From Brevibacterium aurantiacum (GTDB lineage: Bacteria > Actinomycetota > Actinomycetes > Actinomycetales > Brevibacteriaceae), in the NCBI RefSeq assembly GCF_900169065.1, contig NZ_FXZB01000011.1, forward strand, positions 62,001 to 126,000: 64,000 bases of DNA, in the 5' to 3' direction. The notes below the pieces were generated by a model, which searched no databases, was not told where the DNA came from, and saw nothing but the letters and a program-made list of their open reading frames with translations. Positions 4,630 to 59,520 of the stretch are shown in pieces (position 1 is the first letter of the stretch; each line of letters starts with the position of its first letter). Made by a program: the position numbers and the translations under genes.

Positions 4630-5207
4630 GAGTCGGCGTCCTCAGCCTCCAGGGAGCCTTTCGCGAGCACCTCGGCGTGCTCGACTCCCTGGGGGTCAGC
4701 TCCAGCAAGGTCACGAGGCCCGAGCACCTTGATTCCATCGATTCGCTCATCGTGCCCGGAGGCGAGTCATCGGCCATGGTCCGCATTGCCGCCGGAACCG
4801 GACTCTTCCCCACACTCAGTGACAAGATCCAGTCCGGTCTGCCGATCTTCGGCACGTGTGCGGGACTCATCCTCCTCGCCGATCGACTCACGGATGATTC
4901 GCTGGACGGCTTCGACCGCCTCGGCGGGCTCGATATCACGGTGGCCCGCAACGCCTACGGCAGGCAGCGTGAGTCCTTCAGCACCCCCGTCCATGTGAGC
5001 GGGTTCGCCGAAGACTTCGAAGCCACCTTCATCCGTGCTCCGCAGATCATGGAACACGGGGATGATGTCGAGGTCCTCGCGGAGCACGACGGTTCACCGG
5101 TGCTGGTGCGGCAGGGCAATATCTGGGGCGGCAGCTTCCACCCGGAACTCGGTGCCGATACCAGGATCCACAGAGAATTCCTGCACAGCCTCAGCGTGAC
5201 CGTGTAA
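4626..5207 (+). CDS. pdxT: Pyridoxal 5'-phosphate synthase glutaminase subunit PdxT
   Basis: PdxT hydrolyses glutamine and passes ammonia to PdxS. The class I glutaminase features are all visible: PGGESSAM (about residues 44-51), the nucleophile Cys78 in FGTCAGLI, and the His/Glu pair in FHPELG near residue 172. The 193 residues fit the family. It starts with GTG inside the pdxS stop. Together with the divergent pdxR this is a complete, self-regulated vitamin B6 locus. Confidence 0.96.
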
Positions 5208-5217
5208 AGATTGAACC

Positions 5218-6814
5218 ATGACAAACGAGACGCTGCAGAAACTCAAGTCCGGATACACCTTCGATGCTCCGACACTGCAATTGGGGGGTGGCGCTGAACG
5301 AGGATGAGCCCGACAAGGACACCCCGATCTCGATCCCGCTGTCGATGCTCAACCGGCACGGTCTGGTTGCCGGAGCAACGGGCACCGGCAAGACCGTGAC
5401 CCTGCAGGTCCTGGCCGAACAGCTCTCCCGCGCCGGTGTTCCGGTCTTCGCCTCTGACATCAAGGGCGACCTCTCGGGCATCGGTTCCGCGGGCAAACCT
5501 TCCGACAAGTTGAGCAAGCGTCTCGAGGCCTCGGGGCAGGAGTGGAATGCCTCGGCCAACCCCACCGAGTTCTACACCTTGGGAGATTCGGGACTGGGGA
5601 CTCCGCTGCGGGCCACGGTCACCTCGTTCGGACCGATCCTGCTGTCGAAGGTCCTCGAGCTCAATGACACGCAGGAATCCGTGCTTTCGCTGGTCTTCCA
5701 CTACGCCGACACCGCCGGTCTCGCGCTGCTCGATCTCTCTGACCTACGCGCGGTGCTGAACTTCCTCACCTCTGATGAGGGCAAGGCCGATCTCGAGGAC
5801 ATCGGTGGGGCGTCGAAGGCCACCGTCGGCGTCATCCTGCGCAAGATCTCCGAACTCTCCGCACAGGGCGGCGATGTCTTCTTCGGCGAACCCGAGTTCG
5901 ACACCGCGGACCTGCTGCGCCTCGACGACAATGGGGCCGGCATCATCTCGGTCCTCGAATTGCAGAAGCTCAATCAGTCACCGGCACTGTTCTCCACGTT
6001 CCTGATGTGGCTGCTGGCCGACCTGTTCCAGGATCTGCCGGAGGTCGGCGATGCCGACAAGCCCTCGCTCGTGTTCTTCTTCGACGAGGCCCATCTCCTC
6101 TTCGCCGATGCGTCGAAGGCGTTCCTGCAGTCGGTGACGCAGACCGTGCGTCTCATCCGGTCCAAGGGAGTCGGCGTCTTCTTCGTCACGCAGACACCGA
6201 AGGACGTGCCCGAAGATGTGCTCGCCCAATTGGGTTCGCGTATTCAGCATCAGCTGCGGGCGCATACTCCCAACGATGCCAAGGCTCTGAAGTCGACCGT
6301 GCAGACATTCCCGAAGTCCGACTACGATCTCGAATCGCTGCTGACGACGCTGGGCATCGGCGAGGCTGTCGTGACGATGATGGACCCCGAGGGTGCACCC
6401 ACGCCCGTGGCGCCCACGAGGATACGCGCGCCCGAGTCGCAGATGGGTCCGATGTCAGAGGACGAGATCAAATCGGCCGTCGCAGCATCTCCGCAGCACG
6501 AGAAGTACGGGACCGCCATCGACAATGAGTCGGCGCGTGAGATTCTCACGAAGCGCCTGGAGTCCGGCTCCGAGGCCCACGACGAGGAGCAGGCGGCCGG
6601 GAACAAGGTGGCGTTCCCCGAGGACTCGTCGAAGGGATCCCAGTCCGGATCGGGTTCACGTTCGGATTCTCGATCGGGTTCGGGGGCGGGCCAGAAGGAG
6701 GAGGACAGCATGTTCTCCAAGGTCGTGAAGTCCTCTGCGTTCAAGCAGCTCACTCGCACCGCGGTCCGGGAGATCACACGCGGAATCTTCGGAACCTCAC
6801 GTCGTCGACGCTAA
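5218..6814 (+). CDS. HerA-like helicase/ATPase (DUF853 family), frameshifted near the N-terminus
   Basis: The main frame carries a Walker A motif GATGTGKT, a FFFDEAHLLF Walker B and the DUF853 pattern KGDLSGIG. The C-terminal part is Ser/Gly-rich, then basic. The natural start appears to be the ATG at 5218 (TNETLQKLKSGYTFDAP...), preceded by AAAGAT and six bases, but that frame stops after about 29 codons. Reading continues correctly in the next frame after a run of six G at 5283-5288; with five G the junction would read LQLGVALNEDEPD. A shorter product could start within 5264-5290. It follows pdxT by ten bases and overlaps the stop of the convergent lipid kinase gene. DUF853 proteins are proposed DNA-translocating ATPases; the partner nuclease NurA is not in view. 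Confidence 0.8.
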
Positions 6815-11999: not shown

Positions 12000-12106
12000 G
12001 GACGCACAAGTTCAGTATTCCTCTTCGGCAATGCCGAAGCCGACGCCCTTCTCGCCGATGACCCCTTTGCCCTGCTGATGGGCGTACTGCTTGACCAGCA
12101 GATCGG
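12000..12106 (+). pseudogene. Truncated paralogue of the HhH-GPD DNA repair gene at 12563
   Basis: In one frame the segment reads SSVFLFGNAEADALLADDP then FALLMGVLLDQQ, which matches the first 33 residues of the intact gene downstream (NSVYLSGDPASDELLARDP then FALLMGMLLDQQ). At DNA level CCTTTGCCCTGCTGATGGGC is identical in both. The match stops after DQQ, the remaining 180 codons are missing, and the nearest ATG (11998) is out of frame. This is a gene remnant left after duplication followed by deletion or recombination. Confidence 0.75.
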
Positions 12107-12157
12107 AAACCCACAACACTTACGGACAATCCAGCCGTTCCCGACCCAAGAGCTCAG

Positions 12158-12472
12158 ATGCGCACCGTGAAGAATGAAATCGAGATCCGCTTTTTTCCTG
12201 ATTGGGGTCGGAAGGAACCGCTCTGGAGTCATGACACCTGGGACATTGCAGTCAGGACCTCCGACCTTCCGATTTCGATGGAACTCGCCCATGATCTTCA
12301 TAGTTACATGGATTTCTGGGGCGACCACTTCGACCCGTTCGACGACTGGGATTCAGAATCGTCTCGGGCCCATTTTGCGGCCGAAGGGTCCCGTCTTATC
12401 CACGAGTTGAAAGAGCAGCTCAGCGGATACGCAGTCATTGTGGACGAAAGAGATGAAGACTTTCAGTTGTAA
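12158..12472 (+). CDS. Hypothetical protein, acidic, 104 residues
   Basis: The frame begins with ATG at 12158 (an ATG at 12173, giving KNEIEIRFF, is also possible). The protein is acidic and rich in aromatic residues, with DLHSYMDFWGDHFDPFDDW in the middle and LIHELKEQLSGYAVIVDE near the end. I do not recognise a family with confidence; the general look resembles small immunity-like proteins, but there is no toxin gene adjacent. It sits between the glycosylase remnant and the intact copy in DNA that is AT-richer than its surroundings, which suggests recent arrival. Confidence 0.5.
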   Translation: MRTVKNEIEIRFFPDWGRKEPLWSHDTWDIAVRTSDLPISMELAHDLHSYMDFWGDHFDPFDDWDSESSRAHFAAEGSRLIHELKEQLSGYAVIVDERDEDFQL

Positions 12473-12562
12473 ATCCCTACACGGTGATTGCTCAGCCGCC
12501 TGCACTGCCAGCAGATGCCCCCGTCCTGGCATCCAGGTGCGGACTACGGCAAAATTGGATGC

Positions 12563-13219
12563 ATGACTACCAATTCTGTCTACCTGTCTGGTGATCCAGC
12601 ATCCGACGAACTTCTAGCACGCGATCCCTTTGCCCTGCTGATGGGCATGTTGCTTGACCAGCAGGTGCCGATGGAGGTCGCATTCGCCGGTCCGGCGAAG
12701 CTTGCTGAGCGTCTGGGCAAGCTGGATGTCGTTGACATTGCTGAGATGGAGCCCGACGAGTTCCTGGAGAAGTTCTCAATCAAGCCGGCAGTCCACCGTT
12801 TCCCGAAGTCGATGGCCACGCGAGTGCAGAAGCTCGCAACAGAGATCGTTGACGAATATGACGGCGACACAGCTGCGATTTGGACCTCGGGCGATCCGAC
12901 AGGACCGGAACTCCTCAAACGCCTGAAGAAACTGCCCGGATTCGGAGAGCAGAAGGCGAAGATCTTCCTAGCCCTCCTCGGCAAACAGTTCGATTTCAAC
13001 GCCGATGGATGGCGAGAGGCTGCTGGCGACTACGGGACGAAAGACAGCCGTCGCTCCATCGCAGACGTGGTCGATGAGGACACCTTGTTGGAAGTTCGGG
13101 CATTCAAGAAACAGCAGAAGTCAGCCGCTAAAGCAGCCAAGAAGCAGGCTCTTCCACTGACGGGCAGGTTATCCACAGATTCAACTTCGCCTGTTCTCAA
13201 AGTCACGGTTCTCGCATAA
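12563..13219 (+). CDS. HhH-GPD-type base excision DNA repair protein
   Basis: The 218-residue protein has PFALLMGMLLDQQVPMEVAF at the N-terminus and a helix-hairpin-helix at LPGFGEQKAKIFLALLGKQ (about residues 122-140), as in short actinobacterial HhH-GPD proteins that excise damaged bases. A basic tail rich in Lys and Ala (about residues 180-200) could bind DNA. The start at 12563 is chosen by alignment with the family and by AAAATT placed six bases upstream, a weak leaderless signal; no ribosome binding site is present. A remnant of a second copy lies 460 bases upstream. Confidence 0.85.
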   Translation: MTTNSVYLSGDPASDELLARDPFALLMGMLLDQQVPMEVAFAGPAKLAERLGKLDVVDIAEMEPDEFLEKFSIKPAVHRFPKSMATRVQKLATEIVDEYDGDTAAIWTSGDPTGPELLKRLKKLPGFGEQKAKIFLALLGKQFDFNADGWREAAGDYGTKDSRRSIADVVDEDTLLEVRAFKKQQKSAAKAAKKQALPLTGRLSTDSTSPVLKVTVLA

Positions 13220-13281
13220 TGTAGAGATTCCGGGCGCGATTGATACATCGGCGCCGGAGTTGTCGACCACAGAGGCGTGGA

Positions 13282-13923
13282 ATGAAAATCGGACTTGACA
13301 GACGTGTCCGCGTTCGAGCTGCAACAGCTCTGACTTTGACCGCTGCACTCTCAGTGCCCCTATTGCTGTCAGGATGCGAAGACCATTCCCCCGTAGCCGC
13401 GCCAACCTCAACCCTGCCTGCCAAAGACTCCGCAACGGCGTCACCGGCCGCTGACCCGCAACCCACAATCCCCGCCTACGAAACTGACCTGAATCTGAGT
13501 TCAGAGGAGACGGAAGCCGTAGAAGGGGCGCTGGTTGCGTTTGAGGGGTTCTTAGTATCAATCAATGGAGCCTACTCAGGCCATTATGAAAAGGTGGAGG
13601 ACTTTTCCAAATTTTCAAGTGGCGAAGCGCTCGCGTCTATCAGCGATGAAGCCGAATCTATAAAGAACCAACAGGCAACATTCGAAGGAGAAATCAATCC
13701 ACTATCTGTCGAGATATTCAAAATATCTGACTCACCTGATCGCCGACCCTCATCAAACGTAACAGTTCACTTCTGTGTAGACACTAGTCAGTGGTCTCTT
13801 ACACAAGCTGGTGCCAAACCGACAACAAATCCTGACGGTCTGGTGATGATGGAACACGAAATTTTGTTTGAAGACGGCTCATGGACGGTTGATAAACAAT
13901 CGTTATGGGAGCGTAAGTGCTAA
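13282..13923 (+). CDS. Secreted lipoprotein, function unknown
   Basis: A basic start (MKIGLDRRVRVRAAT), a hydrophobic core and the lipobox LLSGC (Cys at about residue 35) mark a lipoprotein anchored on the outer face of the membrane. A Pro/Thr/Ser linker follows, then an alpha/beta region with VTVHFCVDTSQW and ILFEDGSWTVDKQS, similar in style to DUF-type lipoproteins that end in a short beta domain. From about 13540 on the gene is clearly AT-richer than its neighbours. It overlaps the next gene by seven bases, so the two are a translational pair. AGAGG precedes the ATG. Confidence 0.72.
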   Translation: MKIGLDRRVRVRAATALTLTAALSVPLLLSGCEDHSPVAAPTSTLPAKDSATASPAADPQPTIPAYETDLNLSSEETEAVEGALVAFEGFLVSINGAYSGHYEKVEDFSKFSSGEALASISDEAESIKNQQATFEGEINPLSVEIFKISDSPDRRPSSNVTVHFCVDTSQWSLTQAGAKPTTNPDGLVMMEHEILFEDGSWTVDKQSLWERKC

Positions 13924-14768
13924 TACTCAGAGGGTTCAAAATCATCATTGCTGGTTTCGCCGCGATGATGATTTTTCTGTCTTTTTCGACCCCAGCGCTG
14001 GCCGGGCCCGGTTGCAGCATTGGCGACACCAGCAAATGTGACGTTGTAAAGCCTCCGCCTCCTCCGGGACCAGGAGGAGGCGGCGGAGGCGGAGGCTCCG
14101 GCGGTTCCGACGGAGGAGGCTCCGGGGGTGGCTCTGGTGGCGGTTCCGGAGGTGGCGGTTCCGGCGGAGGCGGCGGGGCCGATATGCCCGATTGCATTCT
14201 CGAGGAAGTCGGACATATCTGTGCAGACCTCCCGGGTCCGGGCCCCGGTCCCGGAGGGGGCGGCGGCGGTGCACCCGTCAGGCCAGAACCACCCACCCGG
14301 ATTCCAGAGTCCCAGTTTCAGACTTTCGACATACCAGCTCCGACGATTCATGCCTGGCCCAAGGACTGGTCCGTCATCGGCAAACCGGCTGCCTTCTGGA
14401 CCGATGCAGACACCAGCTACATCGATATGACACTGCTGACATACGCCGTTACGGTCAAGGTCACTCCTGAGAAGTTCTACTGGGATTTCGGCGACGACAC
14501 CGGCGGGACAACGACGAAGACCGGATCCAAGCCACGCCCCGGCGACGAACCGCAGATCGGACACGACTATCAGAAGACAGGAGCGAAGACTGTCGACATG
14601 ACCGCGACGTTCAGCGGGGAATTCTCCGTGGACGGTGGACCTTGGCTGCCCATCGACGGTTTTGCACACGTAGCAAGCAACGAGATCTCCATCGATGTCT
14701 ACCGCTACCACCGCTATCTCGTCGACGAGGACTGCTACATGAACCCACAGGGTCCAGACTGCAACTGA
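13917..14768 (+). CDS. Secreted glycine-rich protein with PKD-like domain
   Basis: A signal peptide (about residues 1-29, ending TPALA) is followed by a Pro/Gly tract with long Gly and Gly-Ser runs (about residues 46-88), a second PGPGPGGGGG tract, and a C-terminal beta-sandwich region with WDFGDDTGG and a downstream GHDYQKTGAKTVDM, the PKD pattern. Four cysteines (CSIGDTSKC, CILEEVGHIC) around the first Gly tract may form disulfides, as may the pair near the C-terminus. It starts with GTG inside the stop of the lipoprotein gene. PKD domains usually mediate binding to surfaces or polysaccharides; the pair may be a surface complex. Confidence 0.75.
   Translation: MLILRGFKIIIAGFAAMMIFLSFSTPALAGPGCSIGDTSKCDVVKPPPPPGPGGGGGGGGSGGSDGGGSGGGSGGGSGGGGSGGGGGADMPDCILEEVGHICADLPGPGPGPGGGGGGAPVRPEPPTRIPESQFQTFDIPAPTIHAWPKDWSVIGKPAAFWTDADTSYIDMTLLTYAVTVKVTPEKFYWDFGDDTGGTTTKTGSKPRPGDEPQIGHDYQKTGAKTVDMTATFSGEFSVDGGPWLPIDGFAHVASNEISIDVYRYHRYLVDEDCYMNPQGPDCN
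14065..14178. repeat. Low-complexity GGN repeat coding for Gly and Gly-Ser runs
   Basis: The stretch is almost entirely GGA, GGC, GGT and TCC codons. Such tracts are prone to slippage and length change. Confidence 0.6.
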
Positions 14769-46584: not shown

Positions 46585-46590
46585 AGAGTA
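46585..46590 (-). promoter_or_regulatory. Putative leaderless -10 hexamer TACTCT (thiE)
   Basis: TACTCT on the minus strand, six bases before the ATG at 46578. Confidence 0.5.
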
Positions 46591-46594
46591 GAGG

Positions 46595-46680
46595 AGTTCG
46601 CGGGAGCCTCATAAAGGGGGCTGAGAGGGCTTTGTGCCGACCGTTCAACCTGATGCGGATCATGCCGCCGGAGGGAGAAG
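46595..46680 (+). promoter_or_regulatory. TPP riboswitch (THI element)
   Basis: The conserved blocks appear in order: CGGGAGCC, GGGGGCTGAGAGGGC, ACCGTTCAACCTGAT and GCGGATCATGCCGCCGGAGG, then GGAGAAG. These match the P2/J3-2 (CTGAGA), P4 (CCTGAT) and P5 (GGAT-AATGCC-type) parts of the TPP riboswitch. The GGAGGGAG end also holds the ribosome binding site of thiO, so thiamine pyrophosphate would hide it and stop translation. It lies directly ahead of thiO-thiS-thiG-thiF. Confidence 0.9.
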
Positions 46681-46683
46681 CAC

Positions 46684-47861
46684 GTGCACGTCATTGTTGT
46701 GGGGGCCGGGATCATCGGCTTGTCCACTGCCTGGAATCTGCGCCGTCGCGGCGTCAGCGTCACCATCATCGATCCGGCTCCCGCCATGGGTGCCTCCCAT
46801 GCTGCGGCGGGGATGCTGGCTCCGGCCGCCGAGGTGGTGTGGGGGCAGTCTCCCCTGTACCCGCTGATGCGTGCCTCAGCAGACCTGTACCCGGACTTCG
46901 CCGCCGAGCTGGCTGCCGCGTCTGGCCATGATCTGGGGTATTCGAGCGCCGAGACCTTTGTGTGTGCCGGTGACCGGGCCGATCTCGCCTCTCTGCGCGA
47001 ACTCATCGACCTGCAGCGCGCAGCCGGTTTCGACGTCTCCCTCGTTCCCGGGTCAAGAGCCAGGGATCTGGAACCGGCGCTCTCACCCGGGGTATGCGGT
47101 GCGGTCACCATTCCCGGGGATCATTCGATCGATCCCCGACGGCTCACCGGCGCACTGCTGGCCGTCCTCGGCGACGCCGTTGTCCGTGCCCGAGTGACCG
47201 GTCTGCTCTCTCAGGCGGATCGGACCGTCGGTGTCGAACTCGAGGATGGGACGAGACTGCAGGCCGATCAGGTCGTCGTGGCCGCGGGCGGTTCCTGCAA
47301 CGACATCTCCGGAGTTCCCGCGCTGCCCCTGCGCCAGGTATGGGGCGAGGTGATCAGACTGCGGGCGCCCGAGACTCTGACCCCGCTTCTCACACGCACG
47401 ATCCGTGGGCTGGTCAAAGGTCGGCCCGTCTACGTTGTGCCTCGTCCCGACGGTGAACTCGTCCTCGGTGCCACGAGTCGTGAGGACGGTCGGTCCGGGA
47501 TCAACGCCGGAGGCGTCCACCAGCTGCTGCGCGACGCCGAACGTCTCGTCCCTGCCATCCTCGAGGCCGAGATCACCGACATCACCACCCGCGCCAGGCC
47601 GGGCTCACCCGATGACGTGCCGATCATCGGGCGCATCGATCCCGGCTGTGTGGTGTCCACCGGCTTCTTCCGGCACGGCATCCTCCTCGCCCCGCTGGGT
47701 GCGAACCTCACCGCCGACCTTGCGTGCGGGAGCGAAACCCTGGCGGGGCCGCCGGGGACACTCGCCGCGGTGGCGCCCGACCGATTCACCGAAGCCGCTC
47801 ATGCTCAGCAGCTCCAGACCACACCGAACGAAATGTTTCAGCAACCGACAGGGAGTCGACT

Positions 47862-47865
<4 letters not shown>
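46684..47865 (+). CDS. thiO: Glycine oxidase ThiO
   Basis: ThiO oxidises glycine to dehydroglycine, a precursor of the thiazole ring. The FAD-binding start reads VIVVGAGIIGLSTAWNLRRR, and SHAAAGMLAPAAEV (the DadA/ThiO loop), RPVYVVPRPDGELVLGATSREDG and RPGSPDDVPIIGR follow. The GTG start is preceded by the ribosome site in the riboswitch. It overlaps thiS by four bases (GTGA). Confidence 0.93.
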
Positions 47866-55240: not shown

Positions 55241-56704
55241 TCATTCGCACCAGGGCGTGCCACCTGTCTGCCGGTCTTCATAGAGTCGGCCCCTGTCCAC
55301 GGACAGGATGCGATCGGCGGTTTGCGCAGCCCATCGTCGGTCGTGGGTGGTGGCAAGGACGGACCCACCTCGGCGAACGAAGTCTTGAATGAACTTGTTC
55401 AGTCGACCGATGGCCTGGCGGTCCCTGCCTAACGTCGGTTCGTCGAGGAGGAGGATCCGAGAGCCCACGATGAGTGCCGCGGCCATCACCAGATCCTTGC
55501 GGAGGTCGATGCTCAGATCGTAGGGATGGGTCTCGCTCACTGCTTCAAGCTGTGCCTGCGCCATCGCCGAAGCCACTGCCTCCTGCCGTTGGGCTCTGAT
55601 GGCTGTTCTGTTCCGGCGCCTGTGGGTGGGCAACGGGGCCGAGCGTGTGAGTTCCTCACGCACGGTGGCAGCCGAGAGCTGGCTGCCCGGATCCTGCCCC
55701 ACCCACCCGAGGTGGGCGGCTCGCTGATGTGCTGGGGTGTCGCCGAGGCTGACCGCCCTCCCGTCATCATCGACCGTGATCGCGCCCGTAATGTCGGCGC
55801 CACGCTCGAGGAGACCAGCCAGGCTGCGCAGGAGAGTCGACTTTCCCGCACCGTTGGGACCCATGATCGTCACGATCTCACCGGTTGCGACATCGAGGTC
55901 CACATGATCGAGGACGGCGGCACCGGCTCGGGAGACCGTCAGGTCGCGCACGGAGAGCGCAACAGCGGTTGGTGCAGATACCTCAGCCTGTTCGACACGA
56001 TCCTGTTCTCGTGTATCCCAGATTCCTTCGTGGTCGCAGTCCCGGACAGTCAGTCGTCGTTGTCTCGCATGTAGGCGTCCGGATGCCAGAACGCTGAAAT
56101 CACGGCAGGCGGCAGCAACTTCGTCGAGCTGATGAGCGGTGATGAGCACCGTTCCTCCGGAGGTGCAGTAGTCCTGCAACACGTGGCCAAGGCGACGTCG
56201 AGCGTCCGGATCCAAGGACAGTGAGGGCTGGTCGAGGGCCAGCAGCGACGGTCGCTGACTGAGCAGCCCGGACAGAGCCACGAGCTGCCGTTGGCCACCG
56301 GACAGGGTCTCGAGTCGTCGTCCCCACAGGTCGCCGATGCCCAGCGAGTCCAAGGTCTCTCGTGCACGCTTGTCGACCTGTGTGGCCTCGTCACCGTGCA
56401 GCCGTCCCGACAGCTGCACTTCATCGCCGACGAGGCTCGTCATTCCGCTCAGCTGAGCCTCGGGATCGTCACCGAGCATCACCGCCGTCCCTTCGAGGCG
56501 GACCTGCCCGACGCTGGTTCCGCGCTCGCCCAACAGTCCTGTGATCAGTCGAACCAATGTCGAGGCGCCGGCGCCCACTGGCCCGAGGATCGCATGCATC
56601 TGCCCCGGCTCCAGACGAAGATCGATGCTCGTCAACGCTGGCCGGGTACTTCCGCGGTAGGTGAAGCCTGCCCCGATCAGTTCGAGAACCACCGTTTCAG
56701 ACAC
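55241..56704 (-). CDS. Fused ECF transporter ATPase (A-A') with one degenerate nucleotide site
   Basis: Two ABC ATPase halves are joined. The N-half (about 1-235) has a Walker A reading GPVGAGAST (residues 41-49) with Ala47 in place of the Lys, and LLALDQPSLSLDP with Gln in place of the catalytic Glu, but an intact signature LSGGQRQLVAL. The C-half (about 245-480) has a normal Walker A MGPNGAGKSTLL and Walker B LLLDEPTLG, but its signature is LSIDLRKDLVMA. The good C-half Walker site therefore pairs with the good N-half signature, and the two poor halves form the other site. It overlaps the T-component gene by eight bases. Confidence 0.9.
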   Translation of the reverse strand: MSETVVLELIGAGFTYRGSTRPALTSIDLRLEPGQMHAILGPVGAGASTLVRLITGLLGERGTSVGQVRLEGTAVMLGDDPEAQLSGMTSLVGDEVQLSGRLHGDEATQVDKRARETLDSLGIGDLWGRRLETLSGGQRQLVALSGLLSQRPSLLALDQPSLSLDPDARRRLGHVLQDYCTSGGTVLITAHQLDEVAAACRDFSVLASGRLHARQRRLTVRDCDHEGIWDTREQDRVEQAEVSAPTAVALSVRDLTVSRAGAAVLDHVDLDVATGEIVTIMGPNGAGKSTLLRSLAGLLERGADITGAITVDDDGRAVSLGDTPAHQRAAHLGWVGQDPGSQLSAATVREELTRSAPLPTHRRRNRTAIRAQRQEAVASAMAQAQLEAVSETHPYDLSIDLRKDLVMAAALIVGSRILLLDEPTLGRDRQAIGRLNKFIQDFVRRGGSVLATTHDRRWAAQTADRILSVDRGRLYEDRQTGGTPWCE

Positions 56705-57512
56705 CTCCGATCAGCTGGTCGGCGGTAGGCAGGGGCAGGACACCGGCCACGGAGCACACGACGAGGACGACGGTGATGATGGGGACGCCTCGGCGCAGGA
56801 GCCATTGGTCCGGCCCGTCGCTGTGGTCCTGCAGTGATGTCGCTGCTGTCGATTCAGTCAGGCCGCGTTGCTCGAGCACTTCGTGGCGCTGTTCGACCTC
56901 GATGAGCACGGAGGTGAACAGGCCGGTGACGATGCCCGGGAGCAACGTCGTGCGGACCCTCCAGCTGCTGACATCCCAGCCGTGACTGGCGCGCGCCTCC
57001 ACGATCTGCTGCGTACGGGCACGGATGAGTGGGACGAGGCCGATCGTCGAGGCGCAGATATAGGCCACGGAGGTCGGCAGCCGAAGTGCCCGCAGCCCGT
57101 CGAACAGGCGTGCCGAGTCGGCCCCGAGGCCGAAGAGCGCGCACAGGGACACGAGCGCAGCGACCCGCAGCCAGATCTGGACCGCAATGGCGAGCCCTTC
57201 GACTGTGAGCCTGGCCGGTCCCAACTGCCACAGCACGATCACCTCGGCGCCGGGGTAGAACAGGCCTTGGACGACGCAGAGGACGAGCAGCGTAGGCAGG
57301 CACACCACACCGACGCCGATCACCCAGGAACGCAGCCTCACTGTCGGTGAGACCGTCGCGGTGATGAGCGTGGCGCCGATGATGGTGATGGGCACGACCG
57401 GGGACGGGATGCCGAAGACGAGCAGCAGAGCGCATGCGAGGACGATGATCTCTGTGGCTGGATGCCAACGGCGGGTGGCCTGCTGTTCCCGGTGGAGAAC
57501 AGTCGCGGGCAT
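56697..57512 (-). CDS. ECF transporter transmembrane T component (EcfT family)
   Basis: The 271-residue protein has about six helices and the coupling-helix motif QQIVEARASHGWDV, the A-R-[AGS] signature by which EcfT contacts the ATPases. A second candidate RHEVLEQRGL follows. It links the S component to the ATPase. Its stop overlaps the ATPase start by eight bases; the S-component gene ends directly at its start, so all belong to one operon. Confidence 0.88.
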   Translation of the reverse strand: MPATVLHREQQATRRWHPATEIIVLACALLLVFGIPSPVVPITIIGATLITATVSPTVRLRSWVIGVGVVCLPTLLVLCVVQGLFYPGAEVIVLWQLGPARLTVEGLAIAVQIWLRVAALVSLCALFGLGADSARLFDGLRALRLPTSVAYICASTIGLVPLIRARTQQIVEARASHGWDVSSWRVRTTLLPGIVTGLFTSVLIEVEQRHEVLEQRGLTESTAATSLQDHSDGPDQWLLRRGVPIITVVLVVCSVAGVLPLPTADQLIGGV

Positions 57513-58376
57513 TCAGCCGACCCGCACCGCTGCTCGGGAGCTGCGCGCACGACTGTGGTCGGTGAACGGATAGCGGTCACGGATCCGGCGGGGCAGTGTG
57601 CGCACGATGACGTAGGCCAGAGCGAAGATGAGTGCCTTGTCGATGATGTCGGAGAACAGGCTCTGCGCCAAAGTCGCATTGAGCATCTCCAGGCCCGCGG
57701 CCTGCAGGACGGCGACAACGCCGCCGGTACCCGAGCCGAGTCCGCCGCCGAAGACGTAGGCGGCCACGGGTGCCCCGAGAGCTCCGGCAGGGATTCCTGC
57801 CAGCGCACCGGCGATGACGGCGAACCAGGGGGTACGGAAGGCTCCGAGCCGCGCAGCCCAACCGGCGGCTGCACCGATGAAGGCCGCACCAGAGCTGAAG
57901 GCGATGACGCTGGGGCTCAGAGTCACACCCCAGATGAGGTTCGAGATGATGCCGGTGAATGCTCCGGCTGCGGGACCGGCGAGGACGCCGATCATCACGG
58001 TCCCGATCGAGTCGAGGTAGAGCGGAATGGGGGTGATGGTCCCGACGACCTGGCCGATGACGATGTTGGCGGCGATGGCCACGGGAATGAGGGCGAGGAT
58101 GCTGCGCGGGATGAGCGGGAGTGTGCCGGCTGCGAGGAGGAGTCCCCCGGCCAGGTAGCCGAGCATGACCCACAGTGTCGTGTGGCCCAGGTCGGTGCCG
58201 AGATTGGCCGGCTGCGTCAGAATGACGGCAAGGTAGGTGCCGAGGATGACGATCGTACCGAGAAACGTCAGTGTCAGGGGCAGTGTGTGGCTCTTGAAGC
58301 TCTTATCGCTCTGGGTTTGTGCGGGACCGACGGTGCGTGTCGGCCCCTGCCCAGACTGCTTGGGCGTCATGGTCAT
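57513..58376 (-). CDS. ECF transporter S (substrate-specific) component
   Basis: A hydrophilic N-tail of about 35 residues precedes roughly seven to eight helices, with IPLYLDSIGTVMIGVLAGP and GAFTGIISNLIWGVT, motifs shared by S components of energy-coupling-factor transporters. The ligand is not fixed by sequence; a nucleoside or its base is suggested by the nucleoside hydrolase gene directly upstream on the same strand. The start region overlaps the hydrolase stop by 74 bases and has no clear ribosome site, so the real start may lie further in. The tail is Arg-rich. Confidence 0.82.
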   Translation of the reverse strand: MTMTPKQSGQGPTRTVGPAQTQSDKSFKSHTLPLTLTFLGTIVILGTYLAVILTQPANLGTDLGHTTLWVMLGYLAGGLLLAAGTLPLIPRSILALIPVAIAANIVIGQVVGTITPIPLYLDSIGTVMIGVLAGPAAGAFTGIISNLIWGVTLSPSVIAFSSGAAFIGAAAGWAARLGAFRTPWFAVIAGALAGIPAGALGAPVAAYVFGGGLGSGTGGVVAVLQAAGLEMLNATLAQSLFSDIIDKALIFALAYVIVRTLPRRIRDRYPFTDHSRARSSRAAVRVG

Positions 58377-59520
58377 GTTGGGGTCCTTTGCTCAGGGTTT
58401 CGCCGAGGTGGTCGAGGAAGGTCTGCGCATCGATCGTGCGGATGATCTCGGCGTTGACGCCCTTCCCCCACCGTCCCAGCCAATCGGCGACGGTTTCGCC
58501 ACGTGTGAGTTTACCGGTGAGTTCGACGTCGACGGGCGCACAGATCGTGCTCGCCCAGGGCAGTGTGCCTCGGGTTCCGTTCGCAATGGGCTCTTCCCTG
58601 CCCGCCGAGGTGGGTCTGCCCTGGTCTCCGCGTGCCCATTCGAGTGCGCAGGCAAGGACGAAGGGGTCATGGATGTGTGCGATGTATCCCAGACCGTCCC
58701 ATTCATGGAATTCGAAGTAGAACCGCAGAGCTTCTGCCATCTGGGCCAGCCAGGCATCCCATGTCCCACCAGCAGCAGATGATTCTCCTGCCCTCTCGTG
58801 GAGTGACGCAGCTCTGTCGAGGATTGTGCTCAACCGTGCGGGTGTCATCTCAAGCGCCTCAGTAGCTTCGATGGGGGCGATGACCGGCAGCGCTCGATGA
58901 GTGCCCTGGCTGTGGGCGTGGTCGAAGGCGTTGATGACGGTCGCCGTCGCCTCGGGATCGAAGGTGACGTTCCACTCGGTGGTCGGGTGGGTGTTGCCGC
59001 GATAGTTGAAGGCTCCGCCCATGATGAAGAGACGGCCCATCAGGCGGGGCAGTTCGGGCTCGATGGCAAGGGCCAGGGCCAGGTTCGTCGCCGGTCCGAT
59101 GACGACGCCGATGAGCTCCCCGGGGTGAGCACGTGCCGCGTCGACCCAGGCCTGCGCGGCGCTGGTGGAGCTCGCCGTTGCTGTTGGGGTGGGAAGGTGC
59201 GCGTAACCGGCCCCGGTGGGGCCGTGCGTGAGGTCGGCGTATTCAGGCTCTGCCGGGGATCCGTCGACTGGATCTCGGGCGAGGTCGCCGACGGACCAAG
59301 CTGTGGGGAACTCGCTTCCCGGGTGGATGGGGATGTCCGTGCGCCCGGCAAGTTCAAGCCAGCCTTGAGCGTTGACGCTGACCTGTGCAGTGGAGACATT
59401 ACCGCCTGAGGCCGCGATGCCGATGATATCGACATCGTCTTGGCACAGCAGGTATCCGAGGGCGATGGCGTCGTCGATTCCGGGATCACAGTCGAGGAAC
59501 AGCGGCAGGTGTGGAGGCAT
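58303..59520 (-). CDS. Nucleoside hydrolase
   Basis: The metal-binding loop LFLDCDPGIDDAIALGYLL at the N-terminus is the diagnostic DxDxxxDD motif of inosine-uridine-preferring nucleoside hydrolases, and ATNLALALAIEPEL with FIMGGAFNYRGN and NVTFDPEATATVI also match. The 405-residue protein is longer than the usual 310-340, mainly by a C-terminal extension. It splits ribonucleosides into base and ribose, in the cytosol. First gene of the ECF operon. Confidence 0.9.
   Translation of the reverse strand: MPPHLPLFLDCDPGIDDAIALGYLLCQDDVDIIGIAASGGNVSTAQVSVNAQGWLELAGRTDIPIHPGSEFPTAWSVGDLARDPVDGSPAEPEYADLTHGPTGAGYAHLPTPTATASSTSAAQAWVDAARAHPGELIGVVIGPATNLALALAIEPELPRLMGRLFIMGGAFNYRGNTHPTTEWNVTFDPEATATVINAFDHAHSQGTHRALPVIAPIEATEALEMTPARLSTILDRAASLHERAGESSAAGGTWDAWLAQMAEALRFYFEFHEWDGLGYIAHIHDPFVLACALEWARGDQGRPTSAGREEPIANGTRGTLPWASTICAPVDVELTGKLTRGETVADWLGRWGKGVNAEIIRTIDAQTFLDHLGETLSKGPQHDHDAQAVWAGADTHRRSRTNPER

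Follow-up and report, generated by a model that had tools for sequence, protein, structure and literature searches.

A nucleoside-linked ECF transporter family with a single predicted hydrolyzing ATP site, from Brevibacterium aurantiacum to related operons in two phyla

The 64,000-nt stretch of the Brevibacterium aurantiacum genome analyzed here (contig NZ_FXZB01000011.1, positions 62,001 to 126,000; hereafter the window) carries the gene for a fused ECF ATPase that belongs with the degenerate-site ABC proteins: catalytic residues are lost in one of its two composite ATP sites and kept in the other, and this arrangement is conserved among its orthologs. We put the probability at roughly three in four that the operon encodes an ECF importer for nucleosides whose motor runs on a single ATP site, with the N-terminal half of the ATPase acting mainly as a donor of the ABC signature.

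RESULTS

A fused ATPase with one damaged and one complete ATP site

The gene occupies 55241..56704 on the minus strand, an assignment that corrects an earlier note on this DNA (frame 1 of the plus strand contains stops across 55241-56704), and encodes 487 aa from a GTG start that overlaps the end of the EcfT gene. The ABC_tran domain matched the protein twice, and it contains two EcfA-type ABC ATPase domains, an N-half at about residues 6-215 and a C-half at about 249-477, joined by a linker with GIWDT at 227-231. The best NCBIfam models were ECF_ATPase_2 and ECF_ATPase_1, both scoring below their cut-offs, and in a sequence search of solved structures, the leading entries were for the most part generic ABC proteins, an EcfA and cobalt CbiO chains coming lower in the list. 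The GxW motif of the linker was considered as a plug for the dead site and dropped, since canonical fused ECF ATPases also carry it.

All motifs lie on the minus strand. In the N-half, Walker A reads GPVGAGAST, with Ala for Lys (residues 41-49; 56558..56584), the Q-loop reads GDDPEAQL, with Asp for Gln (78-85; 56450..56473), and Walker B reads LLALDQP, with Gln for the catalytic Glu (154-160; 56225..56245); the signature LSGGQ is intact (134-138; 56291..56305), and the H-loop keeps its His (TAHQ, 189-192; 56129..56140). In the C-half, the signature is replaced by LSIDLRKD (397-404; 55493..55516), and everything else is intact: Walker A GPNGAGKST (282-290; 55835..55861), the Q-loop Gln (55676..55702), Walker B LLLDEP (418-423; 55436..55453), and the H-loop His (TTHD, 452-455; 55340..55351). 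Each ABC site is made of the Walker side of one half and the signature of the other half, and so all four losses affect a single composite site. Site 1 (N-half Walker side, C-half signature position) is without Lys, Gln, Glu, and its partner signature, whereas site 2 is complete; the two canonical ATP sites that are a usual, if not defining, trait of ECF transporters are thus absent. The earlier note had described the Walker A, Walker B, and C-half signature changes, all of which are found here, and had placed the damage coherently in one site, as we do; it had missed the loss of the Q-loop Gln and the His kept in the damaged half. Homotypic pairing of the two halves would presumably be pointless, since N+N or C+C gives no complete site and N+C gives exactly one.

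The losses are conserved among 38 orthologs

Orthologs of the fused ATPase numbered 38, of which 35 belong to the genus, one to a different genus within the family, and two to other families (G058, G304, and G126 for these last three); we refer to this group and its operons as the window clade. At an E value of 1e-60, the ATPase gene was found in 35/57 genomes of the genus, and 22/57 were without it at that cut-off. Motifs were read at the columns of an HMM that was built from the sequences under study. The N-half Walker A position never holds Lys (Thr in 34, Ala in 2, Leu and Ile in 1 each), and the N-half Q-loop position never holds Gln (Asp in 37, Glu in 1). The exchange of the catalytic Glu for Gln is present in the fused ATPase and in 36/38 orthologs but is not universal, as two keep Glu. 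At the C-half signature, SGG is found in 0/38, and the residues RKD are found in all 38. The substitutes at the lost positions are themselves under constraint. The other site is intact throughout: the N-half signature SGG, the C-half K, Q, E, and H, and the C-half Walker B DE are each present in 38/38. The N-half H-loop His is likewise present in every ortholog, a retention that pure loss does not explain. The earlier note had proposed aligning homologs and had named close relatives with canonical motifs as the outcome that would speak for decay; the losses are found in 35/35 orthologs of the genus and 3/3 outside it, and no relative with canonical motifs turned up among the 38.

For comparison, we read the same positions in 69 ATPase domains encoded close to 40 further EcfT genes from the order, at loci hand-picked from the upper part of an E-value-sorted list of CbiQ matches. 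K, Q, E, and H are present in 69/69 of these domains, and since the Walker A Lys, the Q-loop Gln, and the C-half signature each survive in 0/38 orthologs, the comparison of sequences confirms the motif losses as real, conserved, and beyond chance. Control signatures do vary (23/69 differ at the third position, as in LSFGQ, LSHGQ, LSYGE, and similar), with the second Gly kept in 69/69. Every motif is also intact in 11/11 other fused ECF-type ATPases, which are among the next-best matches to the fused ATPase and comprise nine from the order (including L144, the second one of the B. aurantiacum genome) and two from named Micrococcaceae; for one of the 11, L040, no EcfT was found. Five more distant fused ATPases stand outside this set. 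L047 and L054 are intact, and L039 has LSFGQ in its C-half. L044 shows a milder one-site change, with N-half His to Gln and LSTGE in the C-half, and so does L099, with N-half Glu to Asp and His to Arg and LSMGE in the C-half; partial loss at one site may therefore be wider still. The claim that such a pattern is unusual for ECF transporters accordingly holds against the fused (11/11) and EcfT-adjacent (69/69) domains, which keep their catalytic residues, and is tempered by L044 and L099.

Column entropies differ among the damaged motifs. The degenerate N-half Q-loop, at 0.31 versus 0.36 for the active Q-loop, is as constrained as its working counterpart (N-half mean, 1.10), whereas the lost C-half signature (0.83) and the N-half Walker A (0.59) vary more than the intact motifs (0.18-0.36); values as high as 0.83 and 0.59 would also be expected if constraint had simply relaxed. 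Among 12 close pairs, dN/dS ranged from 0.14 to 0.44 for the N-half, apart from one pair at 0 with no nonsynonymous change and few changes overall, and from 0.13 to 0.59 for the C-half, apart from one pair at 1.14 resting on a dS of 0.005. These ratios suggest mostly purifying selection on both halves of the ATPase in close pairs.

Operon partners of the fused ATPase

The fused ATPase gene is the last of its operon, after genes for a nucleoside hydrolase (IU_nuc_hydro; 58303..59520, minus strand; PF01156, E 1.7e-72), an S component (57513..58376, minus strand), and EcfT (56697..57512, minus strand). EcfT is of the CbiQ family by PF02361 (E 3.1e-14, 53.6 bits, cut-off 25) and scores below the NCBI CbiQ equivalog cut-off. 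The S component is a distant relative of the CD3073 family: its match to NF045596 (E 1.2e-30) reached 106.4 bits against a curated cut-off of 180, making it related to that family and not a member. Its reading frame overlaps the hydrolase gene, and translation may actually begin within that overlap. An AlphaFold2 model of the S component (pLDDT 88.2) has the six-helix ECF S fold; on structural comparison with VIA-align, the top 22 rows were ECF S components (Z 10.0-14.6), two of which carry no more specific title than transition metal transporter; the entry that followed had a Z of 6.9. Foldseek gave no match to this model at E < 0.001, and S components ranked first at E > 0.05. Two extra predicted helices (residues 31-88) precede the region that matches known S components. 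On the gene set and the modeled S fold, we take the operon to encode an ECF transporter, with ATP-driven uptake as the predicted activity.

No riboswitch was found at gathering score upstream of the operon, where there was one chance-level match. Elsewhere in the window, a TPP riboswitch scored above the gathering threshold at 46590-46693 (plus strand), just upstream of the open reading frame 46684..47865, and the GC content, 0.58-0.67 over the remainder of the 64,000 nt, dips to 0.538 at 12001-14000.

In ECF transporters, an Arg is expected in both coupling motifs of EcfT. The first motif is ASHG, with His for Arg, in the window and in L123, where the second is QRG; the second motif has Ser in 17/38 members of the window clade. 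This variation in the coupling arginines concerns the window and L123 on the one hand and L019-L031, L121, L122, L126, and L127 on the other. The His carried by the EcfT of B. aurantiacum itself is a point against our reading of the operon. We considered the coupling helices as an asymmetry matching that of the ATPase and dropped this idea, because the altered Arg differs between subclades.

The order hydrolase-S-T-A is the same in 14/14 long loci, with one extra gene inside the operon in L140; the 14 include L038, which is apparently the same gene as L018. This bears on the possibility that the transporter is dying or dead and its motif losses reflect relaxed selection, for which one could cite the varying coupling arginines and the 22 genomes of the genus in which the gene was missed at the cut-off used. 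Decay would have to account for the loss of the identical three elements, with the second site intact, in all 38 orthologs, for dN/dS values mostly between 0.13 and 0.44, for the preserved gene order, and for the recurrence of the pattern in 28 other operons (see below). We regard it as very improbable indeed and reject a pseudogene reading on the conserved losses and the dN/dS values.

Signature changes in the second ATPase of related operons from two phyla

Searches with the S-component family (E up to 0.001) gave matches in 41/297 genomes of the order, none over the family cut-off; in 50/245 genomes of the class of an uncultured Clostridiaceae genome, six over the cut-off; and in one of seven further genomes, that of L077 (Lacticaseibacillus zhaodongensis). 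Outside the window clade, there were 48 S loci, in 28 of which EcfT and a pair of ATPase domains are encoded no more than 5 kb from the S gene; the other 20 lack this set. These 28 S-T-A1-A2 operons comprise 24 from Actinomycetota and four from Firmicutes (L237, L244, L246, and L250). They contain near copies (L183, L184, and L205; L202 and L203), and 25 non-redundant operons remain when L184, L203, and L205 are left out. In L188, the two ATPase domains are in different frames, and the locus is counted as separately encoded among the 28.

In 28/28 of these operons, the signature of the second ATPase is altered and its K, Q, E, and H are intact, and the idea that the defect is confined to B. 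aurantiacum or its genus is therefore rejected. The altered forms include LPASQ, LSPTE, LPFSQ, LSLCE, and LGLSE; the mildest is LTRGE in L193, which is the only one among 63 operons to keep the second Gly of this signature. The first ATPase has LSGGQ or LSGGE except for slight deviations in L181 (LSSGQ) and L199 (ISGGQ). Its other catalytic residues are kept less regularly: in the 25 non-redundant operons, Lys is present in 22, Glu in 21, and His in 11, the Lys count having been corrected by eye (the K read in L180 was a misalignment, and the gap read in L181 is a kept Lys in GGRSSGKTA). The Lys or the whole P-loop is lost in L180, L193, and L197, and LSGG[QE] stayed; for L180, a search of all three reading frames on that strand near the gene turned up no P-loop, and its first half still has LSGGQ. 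Across the 28 operons, His is kept in 12/14 separately encoded pairs versus 2/14 fused ones. Catalytic residues thus appear to have been lost more than once, and every such loss in the operons examined affects the same site. We think it rather probable, though less so than our reading of the window operon, that a nucleoside-linked ECF family of Actinomycetota and Firmicutes works with a single hydrolyzing site, its first ATPases serving only as signature donors and one ATP per cycle being enough for expelling and resetting the S component.

Could the RKD loop instead be a working alternative signature, such that both sites hydrolyze ATP? Its invariance in 38/38 orthologs and the basic residues found there in most of the related operons fit this idea, yet the N-half that faces the loop is without the Walker A Lys and the Q-loop Gln and, in 36/38, without the catalytic Glu; two hydrolyzing sites are thus a very unlikely outcome.

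A fused ATPase of another sort is encoded in L239 (10995-12368, minus strand), at a distance of roughly 4 kb from an S gene that is CD3073-like; its second-half Walker A reads GVDGNGQRE, with no Lys, and it resembles the RbsA/MglA kind.

Order of the losses

In a tree of half-domains from which the motif columns had been removed, first and second ATPases separate (96/89), and the N-halves (99/97) and C-halves (100/99) of the window clade each form one group. The C-halves of the window clade are nearer to canonical C-halves than are most of the relatives' (98/88), but a single grouping of all signature-less C-halves is not rejected (AU p 0.28). The EcfT tree sets the canonical sequences apart (100/100); two label changes are required among the relatives, as if the window clade lay among them. 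The C-half signature may thus have been lost once or twice, a single origin being neither shown nor rejected. The Lys losses of the window clade, L197, and L180 are on different branches of the half-domain tree, and L193 has a long branch whose position is uncertain. The N-half losses seem to have come later: the second ATPase of the operon family would have lost its signature first, after which the Walker-side residues of the first ATPase, no longer of use, would have been lost repeatedly, leaving it mainly a signature donor.

Structural model and proposed mechanism

The AlphaFold2 model of the fused ATPase (pLDDT 93.7, pTM 0.91) is a closed dimer that, among the matches listed, is closest to the ATP-bound fused DppD (Z 34.3, rmsd 3.0 over 454 residues); no ECF ATPases were among the matches listed in the fold comparisons of this model. 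We propose a head-to-tail arrangement in which the N-half and the C-half together form a single ABC dimer with two composite sites. Site 2, made of the C-half Walker A, Q-loop, Walker B, and His with the N-half LSGGQ, would be the sole hydrolyzing site. Site 1, made of the N-half Walker motifs with the C-half LxxxxRKD loop, should not hydrolyze ATP, because it is without the Lys, the Q-loop Gln, the partner signature, and, in most orthologs, the catalytic Glu, and it may hardly bind MgATP; it would probably act as a fixed hinge, perhaps empty in the window clade. Each cycle would then use one ATP for closing the dimer and shifting EcfT, by which the S component would be released and reset.

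A different role for site 1 is that it is dead for hydrolysis yet holds one ATP over many cycles as a sensor or hub, as has been proposed for CFTR, MRP1, and Pdr5. The His present at site 1 in 38/38 orthologs would suit this role, as would the Walker A Lys kept in 22/25 relatives outside the window clade, through which ancestral binding without hydrolysis may apply, and the part of PMC7756269 that deals with affinities describes MgATP binding at a degenerate NBS1 as comparable to that at the canonical site. The window clade itself, with neither Walker A Lys, Q-loop Gln, nor opposite signature, and L180, without a P-loop in any frame of the strand around its gene, speak against it. A nucleotide-holding site 1 is a possibility to be taken seriously, with a probability of about one in three.

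How a single site could drive an ECF transporter is a question of some weight. In the experiments reported for the L. delbrueckii ECF transporter in the relevant part of PMC10368641, a Glu-to-Gln exchange in either ATPase abolished both ATPase activity and transport, a result that fits a need for two working sites; since that transporter needs Glu in both ATPases, a one-site ECF transporter must work differently or be weak. According to work cited in the same part of that paper, the S component is expelled by ATP binding and not by hydrolysis.

Predicted substrate

Nucleosides are supported as the substrate by the hydrolase or phosphorylase genes near S. A nucleoside hydrolase gene lies within 5 kb of the S gene in 35/41 complete operons (13 of the window clade and 28 others), and with the PNP/UDP-type phosphorylase genes near S in L246 and L250, a nucleoside-cleaving gene is found in 37/41. 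Of 20 neighbor genes scanned in the relatives, only five are nucleoside related (one hydrolase, two phosphorylases, and two PfkB-type kinases, the latter in L179 and L244), and the remaining 15 are unrelated or gave no match. S genes without a motor of their own also lie beside a hydrolase in L245, L248, L249, and L252. Ribonucleosides, cleaved after uptake by the co-encoded hydrolase, are the most likely substrate.

Queuosine or a precursor would be a more specific choice: it would be imported, converted by the hydrolase to queuine, and used by tRNA-guanine transglycosylase. A queuosine-precursor-transporter-like gene, identified by eye and by the mutual similarity of the two loci, sits within the operon in L140 (9065-9976, minus strand) and directly behind it in L146 (6293-7015, plus strand); tgt is present in 53/57 genomes of the genus; and for gut Actinomycetota, PMC11130926 describes the majority as probable salvagers of queuine. 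The link to that gene, on the other hand, is seen in only 2/14 long loci, TIGR00697 is present in 54/57 genomes of the genus regardless of the ECF operon and makes co-occurrence uninformative, and ribokinase- or phosphorylase-type neighbors elsewhere point to nucleosides at large. We consider queuosine an unlikely general substrate, and the gene in L140 and L146 weakly hints at it for some members. In L237, an NrtR-like NUDIX regulator gene (4866-5609, plus strand) directly precedes the S gene, and the substrate there may be a nicotinamide nucleoside.

DISCUSSION

The operon resembles dedicated ECF transporters (those that have S, T, and a paired or fused A for themselves) in its gene set, S fold, CbiQ-family EcfT, and two ABC domains per chain; it differs in that one ATP site is disabled, where the ECF-type ATPases tallied here are intact (11/11 and 69/69). 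Among degenerate-site systems, the earlier note had offered TAP and TM287/288 as analogs. These, and BmrCD, do combine one catalytic with one degenerate site, but they are exporters, and their degenerate sites keep the Walker A Lys. Nearer are systems in which the Walker A Lys and the signature are lost together, and by analogy, the closest precedents for a one-site motor would be the importers RbsA and NupO and the exporter Pdr5. As the part of PMC11466899 on these importers presents them, RbsA and NupO have fused nucleotide-binding domains (NBDs) with one degenerate site, a missing Lys with an altered signature, and ribose and guanosine as substrates; in them, it is the second Walker A that is without Lys, and in the fused ECF ATPase, it is the first. 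That account treats the two as the only fused NBDs of B. subtilis, with ECF transporters outside its scope. RbsA and NupO use a binding protein and ordinary permeases, whereas the operon described here has S and T components and does not encode a type II importer. For Pdr5, a yeast PDR exporter and so a protein of another kind, the portion of PMC7756269 concerned reports one site without Walker A Lys, Walker B Glu, or partner signature, as here, and likewise without the H-loop His, which the fused ECF ATPase keeps; when all four canonical motifs of Pdr5 were restored, function was abolished.

No report of a degenerate-site ECF transporter was found among the matches listed in searches of the open-license PMC literature. 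A natural family, spread over two phyla and with one site disabled in all members examined, would offer a test of how many ATPs an ECF cycle requires. It would mark this family as a likely importer of nucleosides and give a direct way to ask what the second ATP site of ECF transporters is for.
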